A stretch of 64,000 nucleotides of DNA from an uncultured Monoglobus sp. (GTDB taxonomy: Bacteria > Bacillota > Clostridia > Monoglobales > Monoglobaceae): positions 1-64,000 of the forward strand of contig CANQLT010000002.1 in NCBI GenBank assembly GCA_947624775.1. Reading direction: 5' to 3'. Numbering within the stretch: the stretch's first letter is position 1; every line of letters starts with the position of its first letter. The notes under the pieces are model-generated. The model had not been told where the DNA came from, did no database searches, and was given only the letters and a program-made list of their open reading frames with translations. Position numbers and translations under genes: made by a program. Positions 24,180 through 32,681 of this stretch are shown here, piece by piece.

Positions 24180-25778
24180 TTAATTTGCTTCTCCTATGAC
24201 ATTATTATTTTCATCAAGAGCAACCCCTGTTGTATATTCCTCATCAAAGGCATCGCTTACGCTCGCCATTAATTCATAACAAGGCACATTTTTTGTCCAT
24301 GCCCATTCGCTGCCATTAGGGTGATACGAAATTCTAAAGTTTGTATAACCGCTATCGCTTTTTACACCATCACCGGCGATAACATCAATATAATCGGAAT
24401 ATATATTCACAACTCCGTATTCAAGCTGCCCAAACGCGGTCGATACCAAATCAAGCGCCTTTTGCGGCTTTAAACCGTTTGATGTCTTATAATCCGCTGC
24501 ATGTACTAAATACTCGTCACTTATCGCCACAATATCTTCGTATGTATGCTGACCTTGCGTGTATTCTTCTACGGTGCTTTTGCCAACTATTTTGCCGCAG
24601 CAAAAATATTCCATACCGATTTGAGTTTGGTTTCCACCGGGTATTACAACATCCTTAATATTGGATGATGTACCGGTATTTGCACCTTCAATTAACGCAA
24701 CTTCACCGTTGTCGGCGTAAACATACAAGATCTCTCCCATATAACCCGAGCCGCCGTTTGCCGCCATGCTGTTTGAATACAATTTAAACTGATACGCGGA
24801 ACGTCCGTTGTAGACAATAAGTTCACCGCTTCCGGATAAAAAGATATCCGAGTCATTTACATAGGCATCGCCTTTCGCTTTTGCTTCCTCATACGTAAGC
24901 AAAGCGTTAACGGTACTATCAGCCGAACCACTATTCTGCTTTACAAACTCCCAAACGTTGTCATAAGGATTGCCTGTATTTATATCGTACATTGCATAGC
25001 TGATATTTCCGTTTGCCATAGGCGTAATAACATATTTTAAAGCAATTTTAGCCGTAACTCCGGAAGCTTTATCCGCTTCGACGACCTCACCGGTCGCAAC
25101 ATAGGAGCCGTCAGACTGAAGCGTTGCGGGTCCTGACGTGTAAGCATTGTTCGCGTCATGCCGTCTTGAATATGCAAAATTAATATTTCCGCTGCCGGCA
25201 TCTGTTATAGAAAGAGACGCCATTCCCTCGTTATCAACATACGCAATATAATCACCGATCAAAGATGCGTTGCTCACATTTGCCGAAGAATCGGAACCGT
25301 CCGCTCCGCCGTTGATATACACGGTTCTGGTGTTTGCATCCCAGTAAATACTCTGTCCGGTCATCTCGCAAAACGCTCTGATGGGCATGTAAAACACATC
25401 ATAATATTGCAAAGTTGCCGGAACCTCAAGCTGAACTGTTCTTGCAATTCCTCCTTCGCTGTTAAGCGCTATCGCCTCGTTATTTTCCGCCGTAAATTGA
25501 TAACCCACATTGCTTGTTGGTGACATAAAAACCACCGTCTTTGTTGCGTCGTCATAGGAATAATTTGTAAATCCCATAGCTTCAAATACCGGCACAAGTC
25601 TTACCAATGTTCTGTCATTAACGATAATAGGCTTATATTGACCGTTGTCAACAACCGTTCCGTTTACATAAACCGTCAGATCCTCCGAGTACGACCACTG
25701 GTCAAAAGCTGAAACATTGGCAAAACATGTCAATATCAAAGCAACCGACAATAATCCCGTAATAATTTTTTTCTTCAT
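24180..25778 (-). CDS. Secreted copper amine oxidase N-terminal domain protein
   Basis: Signal peptide; VNDRTLVRLVPVFEAMGFTNYSYDDATKTVVF and YMPIRAFCEMTGQSIYWDANTRTVYI. Confidence 0.82.
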   Translation of the reverse strand: MKKKIITGLLSVALILTCFANVSAFDQWSYSEDLTVYVNGTVVDNGQYKPIIVNDRTLVRLVPVFEAMGFTNYSYDDATKTVVFMSPTSNVGYQFTAENNEAIALNSEGGIARTVQLEVPATLQYYDVFYMPIRAFCEMTGQSIYWDANTRTVYINGGADGSDSSANVSNASLIGDYIAYVDNEGMASLSITDAGSGNINFAYSRRHDANNAYTSGPATLQSDGSYVATGEVVEADKASGVTAKIALKYVITPMANGNISYAMYDINTGNPYDNVWEFVKQNSGSADSTVNALLTYEEAKAKGDAYVNDSDIFLSGSGELIVYNGRSAYQFKLYSNSMAANGGSGYMGEILYVYADNGEVALIEGANTGTSSNIKDVVIPGGNQTQIGMEYFCCGKIVGKSTVEEYTQGQHTYEDIVAISDEYLVHAADYKTSNGLKPQKALDLVSTAFGQLEYGVVNIYSDYIDVIAGDGVKSDSGYTNFRISYHPNGSEWAWTKNVPCYELMASVSDAFDEEYTTGVALDENNNVIGEAN

Positions 25779-25843
25779 TTCTTTACCTCCTGATAAATTA
25801 TTTATATTTTTTAATATTTTTTATTATTACAAATAATAAATAC

Positions 25844-25900
25844 GTTAATGTAGCGTAATTATAACACAAATATATGATATTGTCAATACGTTACATTAAC
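25844..25900. promoter_or_regulatory. Inverted-repeat operator pair in the divergent intergenic region beside the XRE regulator
   Basis: gttaatgtagcg (25844..25855) and cgttacattaac (25889..25900) are near-perfect inverted copies. Confidence 0.6.
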
Positions 25901-25919
25901 TTATTTCGGAGTGATTTTC

Positions 25920-26177
25920 ATGAAACAAATTAAATTTTACAATAATAAAAATATAATATCGGGTCGTTTAAAATCGGCACGCGAACACAAAAAAATATCG
26001 CAAACCTCTTTGGCGGCACAATTACAAACTCTTAATGTAAACATTGATCAGCAAATGATAAGCAAAATCGAAAAGAATCAACGTCAGGTCACGGATTATG
26101 AAGTAGCAGCAATATGTAAATGCCTTAACATAACTTTTGAATGGCTGATAGGCGATTACAATGATTTATTTAAATAG
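25920..26177 (+). CDS. XRE-family helix-turn-helix regulator
   Basis: GRLKSAREHKKISQTSLAAQLQTLNVNIDQQMISKIEKNQRQVTDYEVAAICKCLNI. Confidence 0.9.
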   Translation: MKQIKFYNNKNIISGRLKSAREHKKISQTSLAAQLQTLNVNIDQQMISKIEKNQRQVTDYEVAAICKCLNITFEWLIGDYNDLFK

Positions 26178-26197: not shown

Positions 26198-26237
26198 AAA
26201 CGCCTCCGAATTATGATTCGGAAGGCGTTTGCTTTTT
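26198..26237. terminator. Bidirectional terminator between the XRE gene and the phage cassette
   Basis: aaacgcctccgaa-ttatga-ttcggaaggcgttt with T/A flanks. Confidence 0.8.
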
Positions 26238-26245
26238 TGAGCGCT

Positions 26246-27499
26246 TTACATGCCGAGCATGTTCTGAAGGATCAATTGGTTTATGCGCTCCTGCGTCAGG
26301 CGGTTGTTGAGGCGGTCGCCCTCCAGCTGCGCGCGGAGCATGTCGTTATAATATTCCATGTAGATCCCCTGCATAATATTCTCGTTCGCGGCGTTTTCAA
26401 GTCCCAGCATGTTGGACTGCGATTTCTGACCGTTCAGCACGTCGGTCCAGTTATAGTCCTGACTGTTCTGCATATCGGTCCATTTGTACTTCTGATTATT
26501 CAAAAGCTCATTCCAGTTGTAGTCCTGGGAGTTCATCGCCTCCGCCCAGCGGCGCTCGAAAGCGTCTTGGTCCCTCTCGGCGTTGCTCGACAGTGAGGAG
26601 TTCGCGTTGCTTATCGTCTTGTTGTTCACGGCATACGCGTTGCTCCAGACAGTGTCATAAAGTCCGATCATGTTATCAAGCAATTCCGCGTCGCGGCTCA
26701 GACTGTCCGAATAACGCTCATACGCCTGCTGCGCAAGCTCGGGTATCATTCCCGAAAGCTGGCTCATATAATACTGCTGCGCCAATCCCGCCGCGGTCAC
26801 CGCCGCCGAGTTTGAATATCCTCCGGTCATAGCGGAATACGCCGCCATCGTATCCTCGGCCGCGCGTCCGGCATTTAACATATATTGGTCGCGATAAGCC
26901 CCGTACACCGGGTCGGTCGCGGGATCATATGAAAATTCCTTTCGGTTCATGATCGAATTACTGAGACTTTCGATCTGCGGCAGGTACATATCATTGTACT
27001 GCTCGAGCAACTCGTTCGGCGAAACGGCTCCAATCGAGTTAACGTAATCGTCAACCGCCGAGCGCACATCGTTTTGGAACGCCCAGGCCTTGCCGTCGTC
27101 GTCTATATAAAGCGTGTCAAGCGGTATCCCGCCGATCGTTACAACTCCATTCGAGTAACCCAGCGCGTCGGCGGACAAGCCATATCTGCCCGCGTAGCCG
27201 CTGTAGGCGTCCGAGACCCTGACGACCGGATTGCTCGTGTTTGAGTAAAATTGGGCCACGCTGCGCTGTATATCCGCGGGCATTGAGAAAGAAATTCCCG
27301 CCTGCTCGTTTATATACTGCGGCCTCATCAGCTCTCTGCCGCCCAATGTGACCGTTTTGTTCGCCTCGTTGTAGCCTATCAGGCTGTTGTCGATCCCCAT
27401 GTTGCGCAGGGTGGCGCGAACTCCGACCATGCCGTCGGGACGCCGCGGGACCTCGACCTTGACCTGATTGGTTTTAGTTCTACCTGATGTCTTCGACAT
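26246..27499 (-). CDS. Phage virion-associated protein (tail/internal type), Gln/Asn-rich coiled C-terminus
   Basis: Last gene of the virion cassette; N-terminal VGVRATLRNMGIDNSLIGYNEANKTVTLGG; repeated NSQDYNW(N/T) motifs. Confidence 0.55.
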   Translation of the reverse strand: MSKTSGRTKTNQVKVEVPRRPDGMVGVRATLRNMGIDNSLIGYNEANKTVTLGGRELMRPQYINEQAGISFSMPADIQRSVAQFYSNTSNPVVRVSDAYSGYAGRYGLSADALGYSNGVVTIGGIPLDTLYIDDDGKAWAFQNDVRSAVDDYVNSIGAVSPNELLEQYNDMYLPQIESLSNSIMNRKEFSYDPATDPVYGAYRDQYMLNAGRAAEDTMAAYSAMTGGYSNSAAVTAAGLAQQYYMSQLSGMIPELAQQAYERYSDSLSRDAELLDNMIGLYDTVWSNAYAVNNKTISNANSSLSSNAERDQDAFERRWAEAMNSQDYNWNELLNNQKYKWTDMQNSQDYNWTDVLNGQKSQSNMLGLENAANENIMQGIYMEYYNDMLRAQLEGDRLNNRLTQERINQLILQNMLGM

Positions 27500-29171
27500 T
27501 CGTCTTACCTCCTGTGTAGGTTATCATTTCTATATCGTGGACGACCGCTTTTCCCTCGCCCTCCAGCATGATGCGGAAGCTGTCGCACTTCTTTAGCCTT
27601 ATCGGAATACGGTGTACCGAAAAGCCCTTTTCGCCTTTGATCTCGCCGCGGGCGGTGAAATCCTCATCGTCGGCCGCAAAACTTACTGTGACCTTGGTGT
27701 CGTACTCGGCCTCCAGACGGATATAGACGGCGTTCACGCTCTTGAAATCAAAATCGTCAAGCGTGAATTTTTTGGATACCACGCACCATCTTATTATCTC
27801 GTCCGCTTCCTCGTCTCCCAGCAGGTACATGTCGTTCTCGGTCGCGCCGTACAGCCTCTCGCCCAGGCGGACAAAGTCAACGAATTTCGTGTCGTCCTCC
27901 CTGTGCCATACGCCCATATCGGGATCATACACCAGCAGCGACGTTTTTCCGCTCTTGTCCGCGGCGCAGGCATAGTAACGCCTGCCGTCGGTGCCGCTCT
28001 TGCATGACGCGAACATGGTCTTGATCGGGCGGCTTATCCTCTCCGGCTCGCCGCCGGTATACTCATAAAAACCGTCTGCCGCCATGTAGTAAAGAACGCC
28101 GCCGACCTCGGCGACGCTCTTTCCGTCAAGAGCGCCGCTCAGCGTCTGCTTCGGCACCGAAAAATTGGTCGGCGAATCTCCGTAAACATGGTGGATATAG
28201 TCGCGCTTGAACGCCACGACCGATGTCCTGTAGCTGACAATTCCGGTAAAGGCGCCCGGCGTGCCGATCTCGGCGAACCAGCTGTCGTCGGCGAGGCCCC
28301 TGAACGACGAGAAGTTAAAGCAGTCGCCCAGCTTTGATGCGAAAATATACTCGCCGCTTTTCGAGGCCCCGAACAGGCGGTTGTTGTGCACGCACGCGCA
28401 GGCGATATCGGGAATATAGACCTCGATCTTGACCTCTGCGCTCTCGTGCCCGTTTTCAAAAAAGGCGTAGCCGCCCTTTTTGTTATAAAGCAGCAAATCC
28501 AGATCGCTTATGCCCGCCTTCTTGACGATCGCGCTGACGATGCTCTCATCCGAGGCCGTGTCTTTTTTGCTGTCAATCACGCACGTGTTGTTTTGCGTCT
28601 TGGAGCAGCCGGAGATCACAAGGCTGTCGCCGGGCTTGAAATACTTGTCAAACTGCGCACTGTTGTCTCGGCTGATCCTCGCCTGGTATCTGCCGCTTAT
28701 TTCGTCATAGCGGGAGTAAAACGATGCGTTTATCACCGTCATGCTTTTGCCCATCGGCCTGAGCTCGCTTTTGACCTGCCCGTCCTCGGGGTCGGGCAAA
28801 TAACGGTAGTACACCTTGTCGGGGAAAATGCAGATGTTGCCGCCGAAATCCACGATCGACTTTTCGCCCTTGCTCAGCGCAATATTGTCTATACGTCTGC
28901 CCTTGTAGTAAAAGCTCCCGTCCGCAACTCCAGTGAACGAGTCAAGACCAACCGGGTCGTACTCCGGAAGAGCCAGAGCGGTGATACCCTTCTGCGAGGC
29001 GATATGCCGTCTGGGTTTTCGGGGCGACAGGCAGGGCGCCTCGTCGGAGGACATATTGAGCATTTCCGCAAGCTGCCTGTCGTCGATCTTTTCTCTTTGG
29101 TCGTATCCGAAAAAGCTCAGGATATCGACCTTTTTGTTTTTGCTCTTTTGAGCCGCAATCGGCATATACAT
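27480..29171 (-). CDS. Phage structural protein, possibly gp10/tail-stabilization-like beta-propeller
   Basis: VVAFKRDYIHHVYGDSPTNFSVPKQTLSGALDGKSVAEVGGVLYYMAADGFYEYTGGEPERIS pattern; position in cassette. Confidence 0.6.
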   Translation of the reverse strand: MYMPIAAQKSKNKKVDILSFFGYDQREKIDDRQLAEMLNMSSDEAPCLSPRKPRRHIASQKGITALALPEYDPVGLDSFTGVADGSFYYKGRRIDNIALSKGEKSIVDFGGNICIFPDKVYYRYLPDPEDGQVKSELRPMGKSMTVINASFYSRYDEISGRYQARISRDNSAQFDKYFKPGDSLVISGCSKTQNNTCVIDSKKDTASDESIVSAIVKKAGISDLDLLLYNKKGGYAFFENGHESAEVKIEVYIPDIACACVHNNRLFGASKSGEYIFASKLGDCFNFSSFRGLADDSWFAEIGTPGAFTGIVSYRTSVVAFKRDYIHHVYGDSPTNFSVPKQTLSGALDGKSVAEVGGVLYYMAADGFYEYTGGEPERISRPIKTMFASCKSGTDGRRYYACAADKSGKTSLLVYDPDMGVWHREDDTKFVDFVRLGERLYGATENDMYLLGDEEADEIIRWCVVSKKFTLDDFDFKSVNAVYIRLEAEYDTKVTVSFAADDEDFTARGEIKGEKGFSVHRIPIRLKKCDSFRIMLEGEGKAVVHDIEMITYTGGKTNVEDIR

Positions 29172-29182
29172 ATTTCCGCCTC

Positions 29183-29959
29183 CTACCAGTAATTTTTGAA
29201 ACGCGCCAAATCGTTCAGCGGGTTCCGCGTTTTGTAGTCCCTTTTGTACTCATCGTAGATATTGTTGTACTGTATCATGTGGCTCGAGTATGTGTCGTAG
29301 TCATGCTGATACAGAGCGATCTTCGCCAGCAGATATTCGATGTACATGCGGTCATAGGGGGCTTCCGCCTCGGTCTCATCGTTTATCACGCGCTTTATCA
29401 CAAGCTTGGCGCCCGTTTCGGGAGTGAAGATATCATCGGTCAGACGCACCCTCTCGCCGTCGTTTTCATAGACGTAGGTGCGCGCGGGCTCAAATTCCGG
29501 ATCGTCCGGCATCTCGCAGATGATCTCATCGCCCTGCTCAAATGGCAGCATCCAGCCCTCGATCACGCTCTCACTTATGTTGAACTCGCCCTCGATACAG
29601 ATATCCCGCACCTCTCCCGGAGTTGTGAGATAAATAAGCTTGAGCAGCTTGGGCGAGCCGAAGGTCAGACCGAACCTGCGTCGGAGATCGGCGCCTGCCA
29701 GATATGGCAGGCTCCTGAGATCCGCCTTTGTCAGCGGTCTGCCTCCGAGATATGCCGCCTCGATATTGTCGATCGGGATATCCTCGGGCAGCTCCAGCTC
29801 CTCGCGGCAGGTCACAACGGTCTCGATGATGTCATAATATTTTTTGACGTGGCGGCGCAGGGACAGCGACACCTCGCCGCACCAGCCCAGCTTTTCCTCA
29901 AATTCAAAGCTGTTGGGGCTGAGGGCGTCAGCCGCCTCTATCGCTTTTAAAAGCTTCAA
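29183..29959 (-). CDS. Phage head-tail connector/adaptor-like protein
   Basis: C-terminal RMYIEYLLAKIALYQHDYDTYSSHMIQYNNIYDEYKRDYKTRNP typical of adaptor-like proteins; position after the capsid gene. Confidence 0.55.
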   Translation of the reverse strand: MKLLKAIEAADALSPNSFEFEEKLGWCGEVSLSLRRHVKKYYDIIETVVTCREELELPEDIPIDNIEAAYLGGRPLTKADLRSLPYLAGADLRRRFGLTFGSPKLLKLIYLTTPGEVRDICIEGEFNISESVIEGWMLPFEQGDEIICEMPDDPEFEPARTYVYENDGERVRLTDDIFTPETGAKLVIKRVINDETEAEAPYDRMYIEYLLAKIALYQHDYDTYSSHMIQYNNIYDEYKRDYKTRNPLNDLARFKNYW

Positions 29960-29972
29960 TCACATCACCGCC

Positions 29973-30221
29973 CTACGCCTTCAGGCTGTCCACGTATTTT
30001 TCGGCGGCGATCTCCTGCCTGTGGGCGCGCTCCACCGCCAACGCGACCTTTCGGGGGACCGTGACTGTCTCGCCGCGCTTTATCTGGTAGTTGGTGCCGT
30101 TGACCGTCACGGTCAGGTCGTCCTTGTTCTTCCAGTTGTCCTTCACCAGCATAAGGGGCACCGGCTCGTTATAGAACGCCTCGAGCTCAGCCTCGTATTT
30201 CTGTTTTTTTGTCATTGCCAT
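29973..30221 (-). CDS. Small conserved phage-cassette protein
   Basis: MAMTKKQKYEAELEAFYNEPVPLMLVKDNWKNKDDLTVTVNG; start chosen at 30221 from the SD ggaggcgag. Confidence 0.6.
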   Translation of the reverse strand: MAMTKKQKYEAELEAFYNEPVPLMLVKDNWKNKDDLTVTVNGTNYQIKRGETVTVPRKVALAVERAHRQEIAAEKYVDSLKA

Positions 30222-30238
30222 TTGTCTCGCCTCCCGAT

Positions 30239-31471
30239 TTAGTAGCTGCACGTGGTCTCGACTCTCACCATAAACTCGGGAGAAAGGATCTCCGCCGTCT
30301 GAGTGGCCTTCCAGCCAACGGTGCTTCTCTGGTCGAGAGGATCGCCCGTGCCGGCGCTGCCCTTCTGCTTGATGATAGTCTCAAGGCCGCCGCCCGTGAT
30401 ATTTGTGACGCCGTAGGCGTTCTGGCCGATGAACAGCGTGGAATAAATATCTCTGCCGTCCTTGCCGGCGCCCGCGGGATAGATTATCGAGCCCGTCGTC
30501 ACAGTGGGGCTCAGAGTCTCGGTCACCGTGATCTTCGCCGCTCCGGGCTCTCCCGGCGTTGCGGACGAGATCGTGTAGTCAAAGCCGTTTATCTGGATCG
30601 CCCTGCCCGTCAGAGCGGACGCGTCGCTCGTCGCGATCTCCTCGGACACAGTTATGACCTTGCCGGAAACTGCCGCTACGGTCAGGCTCTCGGGGTCGCC
30701 GATCATGATATTTTCCATCTTGCGCAGAGGCGCGGCTCTGAAAATTTTCGCCTCGGTAGACTCAACGAACACAACGCCGTGGATTTTGCCGATTGTGCCG
30801 TTGTACCAGTCCTTGGGATCAACGTTCTGCTTAACGGCCTTCCATTCGGGGTCGTTTGTCAGATCGTTCGCCACATCGGGGTGGATAATCGCCACATAGC
30901 AGCCGTCCTTGATGGGCTGAGCGTTGTTGCGCTTGAGCGTGGCGACCGCTCTCTTGACCGCGGCCACGCTGAGATAGTCGTTGCCGCTCGTCTGACCGCC
31001 CACAAGCACGTTTCTGTCAGCTTTGCCGTCGCCGTACTGCACGTTGGTGCCCGCGTTGATCTTCTCGCGGATAACAGTGTCGAGCGTTCTTCCCGCCTGG
31101 TCTCCCAGCACGTTCTGGGTCTCGACTATAACATTGTCGATGGCCGAAAGCGTCAGCATATCCGACAAGGTGACATAATCGCCGTACTGATCGACCGTCG
31201 ACTCAACGGTTGTCACGTTCAGCTGATTGCCCTTGGGCGTAACGCCCTCGGTCAGCGGCTTCATCGCCTTGGGCAGAGGGCTGAATCTGCGAAACTCGAT
31301 GGTCTTGCCCGAACCCTTGGGGATAGGCTTGCTCTGGCCAAACTGGGCATGAACCAGCTTGGGAGAGGCAAAGCGGATCATCTGCCTGTCGTAGTACGCC
31401 TTCATCTCGGGGGTAACGTTGTTGCCCACGCGGTTTGTGGTCGTTGTCTGGGTGTTGTAATTAATACTCAT
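30239..31471 (-). CDS. N4-gp56-type phage major capsid protein
   Basis: TPEMKAYYDRQMIRFASPKLVHAQFGQSKPIPKGSGKTIEFRRFSPLPKAMKPLTEGVTPKGNQLNVTTVESTVDQYGDYVTLSDML is typical of the N4-gp56 capsid family. Confidence 0.88.
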   Translation of the reverse strand: MSINYNTQTTTTNRVGNNVTPEMKAYYDRQMIRFASPKLVHAQFGQSKPIPKGSGKTIEFRRFSPLPKAMKPLTEGVTPKGNQLNVTTVESTVDQYGDYVTLSDMLTLSAIDNVIVETQNVLGDQAGRTLDTVIREKINAGTNVQYGDGKADRNVLVGGQTSGNDYLSVAAVKRAVATLKRNNAQPIKDGCYVAIIHPDVANDLTNDPEWKAVKQNVDPKDWYNGTIGKIHGVVFVESTEAKIFRAAPLRKMENIMIGDPESLTVAAVSGKVITVSEEIATSDASALTGRAIQINGFDYTISSATPGEPGAAKITVTETLSPTVTTGSIIYPAGAGKDGRDIYSTLFIGQNAYGVTNITGGGLETIIKQKGSAGTGDPLDQRSTVGWKATQTAEILSPEFMVRVETTCSY

Positions 31472-31512
31472 TAAAAATACCTCCGTTTAAAATTTTTGTT
31501 TTTTGTCTCGGA

Positions 31513-32088
31513 CTAAAACGAGATCTTCTCGCCGCGGCGGACGCGTCTTATGATGTCGTCAACCTCTTCGTCGCTCATGTCCTCGGGGTTCTTTTTCACC
31601 ATTCCGCTGCCACCGGGCTTTGAAGTCCCGTTCTCCGAAATCCTCTTTTCGGGCTCCTCGGGCTTTACGCGGTTGTTTTCGGCCTGCTCCTCGCCGCGAT
31701 GGGCCAGATAGTAGGCGTCCTCAACGCTGAGCCCGTTGCCCCACAGATAGTTGCAGAACTTGGGGTCCTGAAGCTCACGTCTGATGTCAAAATCGGGATT
31801 CTTTTTCGAGAACTCCCTGACCTGCGCGTCGATCTCCGCGGTTCTTTTGGCTATGTACGCCTCAAGCCGCGGATCGGCCGCGCCTCGCATACCCTGAGCG
31901 GGCATCGGCATACCATACTGCGCGGGCGCGGCACCGGGCATCATTCCGGGCGCCATTCCCTGCATGGGCGCTGCTCCCGGCTGCGCCTGCGCGGGATACC
32001 CCTGCGGCTGAACGGGATATCCGCCGCGCGCGGCCTCGAGATACTCCCGCTCCTCCGGATTCTGTTTTCTGTTTCCAAAACCAAGCAT
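31513..32088 (-). CDS. Scaffold-like phage protein
   Basis: Directly upstream of the capsid gene; Pro/Gln/Met-rich N-terminus, charged helical C-terminus; start placed at 32088 (aaaggag upstream). Confidence 0.55.
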   Translation of the reverse strand: MLGFGNRKQNPEEREYLEAARGGYPVQPQGYPAQAQPGAAPMQGMAPGMMPGAAPAQYGMPMPAQGMRGAADPRLEAYIAKRTAEIDAQVREFSKKNPDFDIRRELQDPKFCNYLWGNGLSVEDAYYLAHRGEEQAENNRVKPEEPEKRISENGTSKPGGSGMVKKNPEDMSDEEVDDIIRRVRRGEKISF

Positions 32089-32170
32089 AATTATGCTCCT
32101 TTCATAATAATTTCGCGCCGTTTTCCTCGGCACAATTTTATTATAAACGGCTTTGAGTGCCGCGTGGTGC

Positions 32171-32660
32171 CAACGTAGTGATTAGTGATTAGCGAATAGC
32201 GAATACGCGGAGATAATTTGTCAAAAATCATTCGCATATCCCCGCGAACTAAAAAAGGCTCGCCCTTGGGGAGAGCTGTCTGCGGAGCAGACTGAGAGGG
32301 GTTTGTATTCCGATTCCCTACGTTGACCCCTCTCCGCCCGCAAGCGGGCACCTCTAATGAAGCGCTTGGTGAAAATCGCAAGCGATTTTCAAAGGTCGCT
32401 TTGAACCCGCAAGTAAGCTTGCTGATTATCCCCAAGGGGCGAGGCAAACGGGCGGATAATATCCGCCCCTACGGCATTTGCATACCATGATCGTAGGGGA
32501 CGGCGCCCTCGACGTCCCGGCTCCCCCTCGGGGGAGCTGTCGGGCAAAGCCCGACTGAGGAGGAATCCTAATCACTATTCACTAATCGCTAATCACTACG
32601 TTGGCTGAGGGGTTTTCCTAGTCCCTAGGTCCTATTCTCTAGTCCCTACGTTAAAAGCGC
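32171..32660. repeat. Intergenic repeat block upstream of the phage cassette
   Basis: Contains an inverted copy of the GCGGGAACAC...CTAATCACTA element, CTCGCCCTTGGGGAGAGCTGTC..., gggcggataatatccgcccctac, gtaggggacggcgccctcgacgtcc, and CTAATCACTA decamers. Confidence 0.8.
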
Positions 32661-32681
32661 TATATTTAAATGACAAATCAT

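Follow-up and report, generated by a model that had tools for sequence, protein, structure and literature searches.

Podovirus-like head, packaging and lysis genes dispersed over the Monoglobus chromosome: a probable host-domesticated gene transfer agent

A capsid cassette without neighboring packaging genes was found in a 64,000-nucleotide stretch of contig C2 (hereafter, the window) of a Monoglobus genome (2.77 Mb, 182 contigs). This cassette is probably the head and connector operon of a dispersed, host-domesticated gene transfer agent (GTA) of the podovirus type. At the level of sequence, the parts of the system, their dispersion, their inheritance, the selection acting on them and their common late promoters are well established. 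The bacteria probably package and release their own DNA with this machine, because its parts are chromosomal, share one promoter design and are inherited across the family.

The head cassette and the other loci

The cassette (positions 26246-32088, locus 1) is made up of six co-directional genes on the minus strand, all of them open. Their intactness and their position between ordinary chromosomal genes (ANTAR and GlnA on one side, a Cu-amine-oxidase-N protein and an XRE gene on the other) agree with a previous sequence-only reading. The operon starts with a scaffold-like gene (31513..32088, minus strand) that matches an unnamed family (phrog_13908, E 8e-11) and that is placed between the portal and the major capsid protein (MCP) in the relatives whose portal lies alongside. 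It is followed by the MCP (30239..31471, minus strand), whose proposed N4-gp56 identity was confirmed by its matches to NCBIfam TIGR04387 (277 bits, cut-off 60) and phrog_1357 (276 bits). The next gene codes for a small virion-cassette protein (29973..30218, minus strand) which belongs to a family without assigned function (phrog_15239, E 2e-18) and occupies the same position as in phage contigs. The fourth product (29183..29959, minus strand), previously called a connector, matched no named family and is tentatively described as a head-to-tail adaptor-like protein: the best PDB matches to its AlphaFold model (pLDDT 88) are podophage tail or adaptor chains (Pa223 tail, E 7e-4; GP4 portal-tail complex, E 4e-3), although these matches are weak, with TM of only 0.38-0.46. 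The gp10-like identity of the fifth protein (27480..29171, minus strand) was also upheld by a 151-bit match to phrog_511, an 'internal virion protein'. The last gene (26246..27499, minus strand) codes for a putative tail or internal virion protein with homologues at the equivalent position in phage contigs and in Faecalibacterium; its phage-conserved part spans approximately residues 168-285 and its structural model is poor (pLDDT 63). Sequence searches of solved structures gave no match for the MCP, the portal or the gp10-like protein. A terminator-like hairpin that closes the operon can be read from the sequence (~26198..26230), but it is absent from the list of a consensus terminator scanner. 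Among the related loci, the XRE gene beyond it (window 24180-26177) had no match and the Cu-amine-oxidase-N protein of the same interval had a weak match in L017 only; both genes seem peculiar to the form that the site takes in the present genome.

The sequence-only reading had regarded the cassette as an orphan. This is accurate for the window, which contains no packaging gene, but not for the genome: when a relative's portal and the TerL of a phage contig were used as queries, they retrieved one P22-like portal and one TerL, both on contig C35 and unlinked to the capsid genes. This second locus (L132) sits between secDF and yqgF and successively contains a fibre gene, the portal, a divergent S24/CI-type repressor, a small cysteine-bearing protein, an ArpU/RinA-like regulator, a 75-residue protein and TerL. 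The same order is kept in the genus and in G016, G017, G018 and G027. The names ArpU and TerS are tentative, as the regulator was only weakly assigned (phrog_36, E 5e-5) and the 75-residue protein in the TerS position had no family match. The suggested check for a terminase and a portal elsewhere in the genome was therefore productive, although it revealed what looks like a dispersed GTA-like set and not a complete prophage. The lack of a packaging gene in the window itself would fit the earlier proposal of a DNA-free particle or domesticated compartment, or of a helper-dependent satellite. Nevertheless, the conserved, unlinked portal and TerL are under purifying selection, a promoter element ties the loci together and their inheritance tracks that of the host, all of which make this proposal highly improbable.

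Two further loci complete the set. Locus 3 (contig C12) carries tail-fibre genes and locus 4 (contig C13) an SPP1-type holin followed by an amidase. A search with the holin family PF05105 missed this SPP1-type holin, and the amidase query also matches ordinary cell-wall amidases, so that only the 291-residue copy adjoining the holin was accepted. The tail-fibre locus was not found in G002 or G005 with an N-terminal query. The distance between loci varies: in the one-contig genome G009, approximately 270 kb separate the capsid locus from the portal locus, which is more than one headful for any known podovirus; loci 2 and 4 are ~8-30 kb apart on one contig in G011 and G005; and fibre, holin and amidase are consecutive in G018, from another genus.

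The content of these loci bears on a second reading, that of a killing particle comparable to PBSX from Bacillus subtilis, in which heads filled with host DNA would be released without delivery and variable tail fibres would kill competitors. PBSX has a long contractile tail and is encoded at one locus. Like the Monoglobus system, it is a defective phage carried on the chromosome of a Gram-positive bacterium; the Monoglobus parts, by contrast, are podovirus-like and lie at several loci, and in none of the four loci were contractile-tail genes observed. Although PBSX has been cited as the second GTA-like precedent from Gram-positive bacteria (PMC12946183) and the tail-fibre sequences do diverge strongly between species, a killing particle seems rather unlikely. 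Sequence separates a killer from a GTA poorly, because killing would use the same machinery. Elsewhere in the genome (G000 contig C53, L182), contractile-tail or baseplate-like genes were observed near a 728-residue recombinase-like gene and are perhaps a separate prophage or tailocin.

A late promoter common to several loci

The head operon is preceded by a putative late promoter, TGGCACCACGCGGCACTCAAAGCCGTTTATAAT (32140..32172, minus strand), of a design that is also found at the fibre-portal, tail-fibre and holin-amidase loci. The element (TGGCAY-N5-TGGCACT-N10-TANAAT) was first read upstream of locus 1, the fibre-portal genes and the tail fibre. Since the pattern was taken from those sites, it was tested in two ways. 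In the first, a weight matrix trained on the fibre-portal sites of locus 2 alone was compared with 200 shuffles. The matrix score exceeded 200 of 200 shuffles at the window cassette, the tail fibre, the holin-amidase pair and a DnaD-like gene on contig C20, and it did not exceed all shuffles upstream of the TerL operon, the repressor, XRE or ANTAR. The holin-amidase site is the cleanest test because it was unknown when the matrix was built; the score at locus 1 is not fully blind, as the resemblance of the training sites to locus 1 was already apparent when they were chosen. The scaffold site surpassed all shuffles in 10 of the 11 genus genomes tested (not in G008) and also in G017, G024 and G027, and fell below that level in several other genera. 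The holin-amidase site recurs in eight genomes of the genus (G000, G003-G007, G010 and G011), in a scan whose shuffles preserve base composition only. The prophage holins of G009, G008 and G001 lack the element.

In the second test, the core pattern was counted in whole genomes. It matched four times in the 2.77-Mb genome (versus 0 for a reversed control), three of them at loci of the system, and 27 times over the 12 genomes of the genus (versus 1). Loci 1-3 account for 20 of these 27 matches, and six precede DnaD-like or HTH genes with a C-terminal peptide in common. The remaining one, on G002 contig C49, is not followed by a phage gene and was rejected as probably due to chance. As judged from sequence, locus 1, the fibre-portal genes and loci 3 and 4 are thus under one promoter design, from which the TerL operon is exempt. 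The words CAACGTAGTGATTAG and its complement, which occur upstream of both locus 1 and locus 2 (window 32089-32681 and L132:12504-13335), have the look of a dispersed intergenic repeat and were excluded as evidence.

The DnaD-like gene on G000 contig C20 (L328:6081-6596) codes for a 171-residue HTH/DnaD-like protein, and similar genes lie behind the late promoter in G001, G004, G007, G009 and G011. Their C-terminal peptide is common and their N-terminal domains are exchangeable; in G009 and G001, Lin1244-like proteins whose C-terminal peptide is similar also stand behind the promoter. The Bartonella GTA over-replicates host DNA by run-off replication. Because the Monoglobus regulon includes a phage-type DnaD/primosome-like gene, it is conceivable, if speculative, that we are dealing with a GTA which over-replicates host DNA before packaging, was domesticated independently of the Faecalibacterium GTA and was kept across a bacterial family.

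If the preferred GTA reading is accepted, the inferred course of events is as follows. DNA damage or stress would relieve the S24/CI-type repressor, and an early operon would then make TerL and the ArpU-like protein, the latter of which would activate the four late promoters, with locus 1 supplying the scaffold, capsid, adaptor and tail-base proteins. The heads would take up pieces of host DNA, the holin and the amidase would lyse the cell, and the released particles would deliver their DNA to related cells.

Inheritance and selection

The portal was found in all 12 of the genus genomes searched and the MCP, as a single copy, in 11 of them; both extend to several genera of the family. The exception is G006, in which the portal and TerL are present and the MCP was not found, perhaps because of an assembly gap. 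The MCP is present in 26 of 60 related genomes and every one of the 26 also yields a portal match, although the count comes from related genomes, which are not independent and are mostly metagenome-assembled. Neither gene was found in the small genomes of genera g2, g4 and g9. The evolutionary distances of the MCP, portal and TerL correlate with those of the host SecD (r 0.93-0.94) and with one another (0.94-0.97), and their trees are closely similar. The MCP distance is 0.77 of the SecD distance, that is, the capsid evolves more slowly than SecD. The Monoglobaceae TerL and portal sequences form one supported clade each. The reading frames are full length in nearly all relatives, so the frequent frameshifts that would speak for decay did not appear, and the proposed comparison of relatives for dN/dS below 1 gave values of 0.01-0.3 for the particle genes. 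Taken together, the sequences indicate that the head and packaging genes pass down with the host chromosome and that purifying selection acts on them. This supports the suggestion of the sequence-only reading that the cassette was retained for a function.

These data also weigh on the possibility of an old prophage that was split by rearrangement and is now decaying. Neither an integrase nor a set of replication genes was seen at loci 1 and 2, as might be expected in that case. Yet the genes are dispersed and intact, their dN/dS is well below 1, the capsid changes more slowly than a host protein and the promoter is conserved at several loci. Decay is accordingly a very poor candidate.

Relationship to known gene transfer agents

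Three of the criteria that have been listed for GTAs (PMC9662315) can be compared with these results. The first is the derivation of particle proteins from Caudoviricetes, and here the MCP, portal, TerL, gp10-like protein and holin have family matches. The second is an endogenised genome, often split over multiple loci; the Monoglobus genes occupy at least four chromosomal loci with host flanks. The third is a mostly vertical inheritance with host co-diversification, to which the correlation with SecD corresponds. A further criterion, an own genome that does not fit whole into one particle, may apply as well, given the ~270 kb between capsid and portal loci in G009. The list also comprises random chromosomal DNA of the host as the main content of the particles and its delivery to other cells, both of which would be predicted for the Monoglobus system. 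As the agreement concerns the three criteria that sequence can test, the system is classed here as GTA-like rather than as a proven GTA. The bias towards cheap amino acids published for GTAs was not seen consistently.

The closest comparison is FpGTA from Faecalibacterium, whose two unlinked operons produce ~40-nm particles with ~9 kb of host DNA. It has a podovirus-like TerL, portal, scaffold and MCP and a separate tail-fibre/lysis operon, and no replication genes have been reported for it (PMC12946183). The Monoglobus system is likewise a podovirus-like set in unlinked loci. A probable FpGTA homologue was found in 30 of 31 Faecalibacterium genomes, and these loci are probably FpGTA I itself, as judged by their near-universality, span of roughly 9.5 kb and gene set, not by an accession match. 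TerL, portal, scaffold, MCP, the small protein, the gp10-like protein and the tail protein are common to both systems (~23-48% identity). In contrast to FpGTA, the Monoglobus TerL and portal lie apart from the capsid genes, lysis genes and tail fibres are at further loci, and an S24 repressor stands between portal and TerL. Moreover, the TerL and portal of Monoglobaceae group in supported clades separate from those of Faecalibacterium. The best reading of these sequences is that the two systems are related and that the Monoglobus one is separate in the trees.

RcGTA is run by host regulators, whereas the regulation in Monoglobus looks phage-like (S24 repressor, ArpU-like protein). RcGTA also has another phage ancestor and another host phylum. 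Nevertheless, the Monoglobus genes resemble those of RcGTA (Rhodogtaviriformidae) in being scattered and vertically inherited, as the structural, regulatory and lysis genes of the latter are distributed over several loci (PMC9662315).

In five loci of other Clostridia (L053, L054, L057, L058 and L059), another capsid cassette occurs without adjacent TerL or portal, in all but L057 beside a phosphopentomutase-like gene; it is possibly a second dispersed system. Compact islands in Clostridia contigs (L030, L034, L037, L042 and L087) have their particle genes in a single row: TerL (where the locus reaches that far), portal, scaffold, MCP, small protein, adaptor, gp10-like, tail, amidase-like and fibre. 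These islands may be further GTA-like elements or prophages.

Few GTAs are known outside Alphaproteobacteria, and FpGTA, reported in 2026, is the first from gut Clostridia. In the paper collection searched, no publication linked Monoglobus with gene transfer agents. The Monoglobus system looks like a separate GTA lineage in a further family. Each of its pieces looks orphan on its own because they are so scattered, and the common promoter element offers a simple means of assigning such genes to one system. If active, the system would allow gut bacteria to exchange genes and would be a tractable example of a host that dismantled a phage and kept it.
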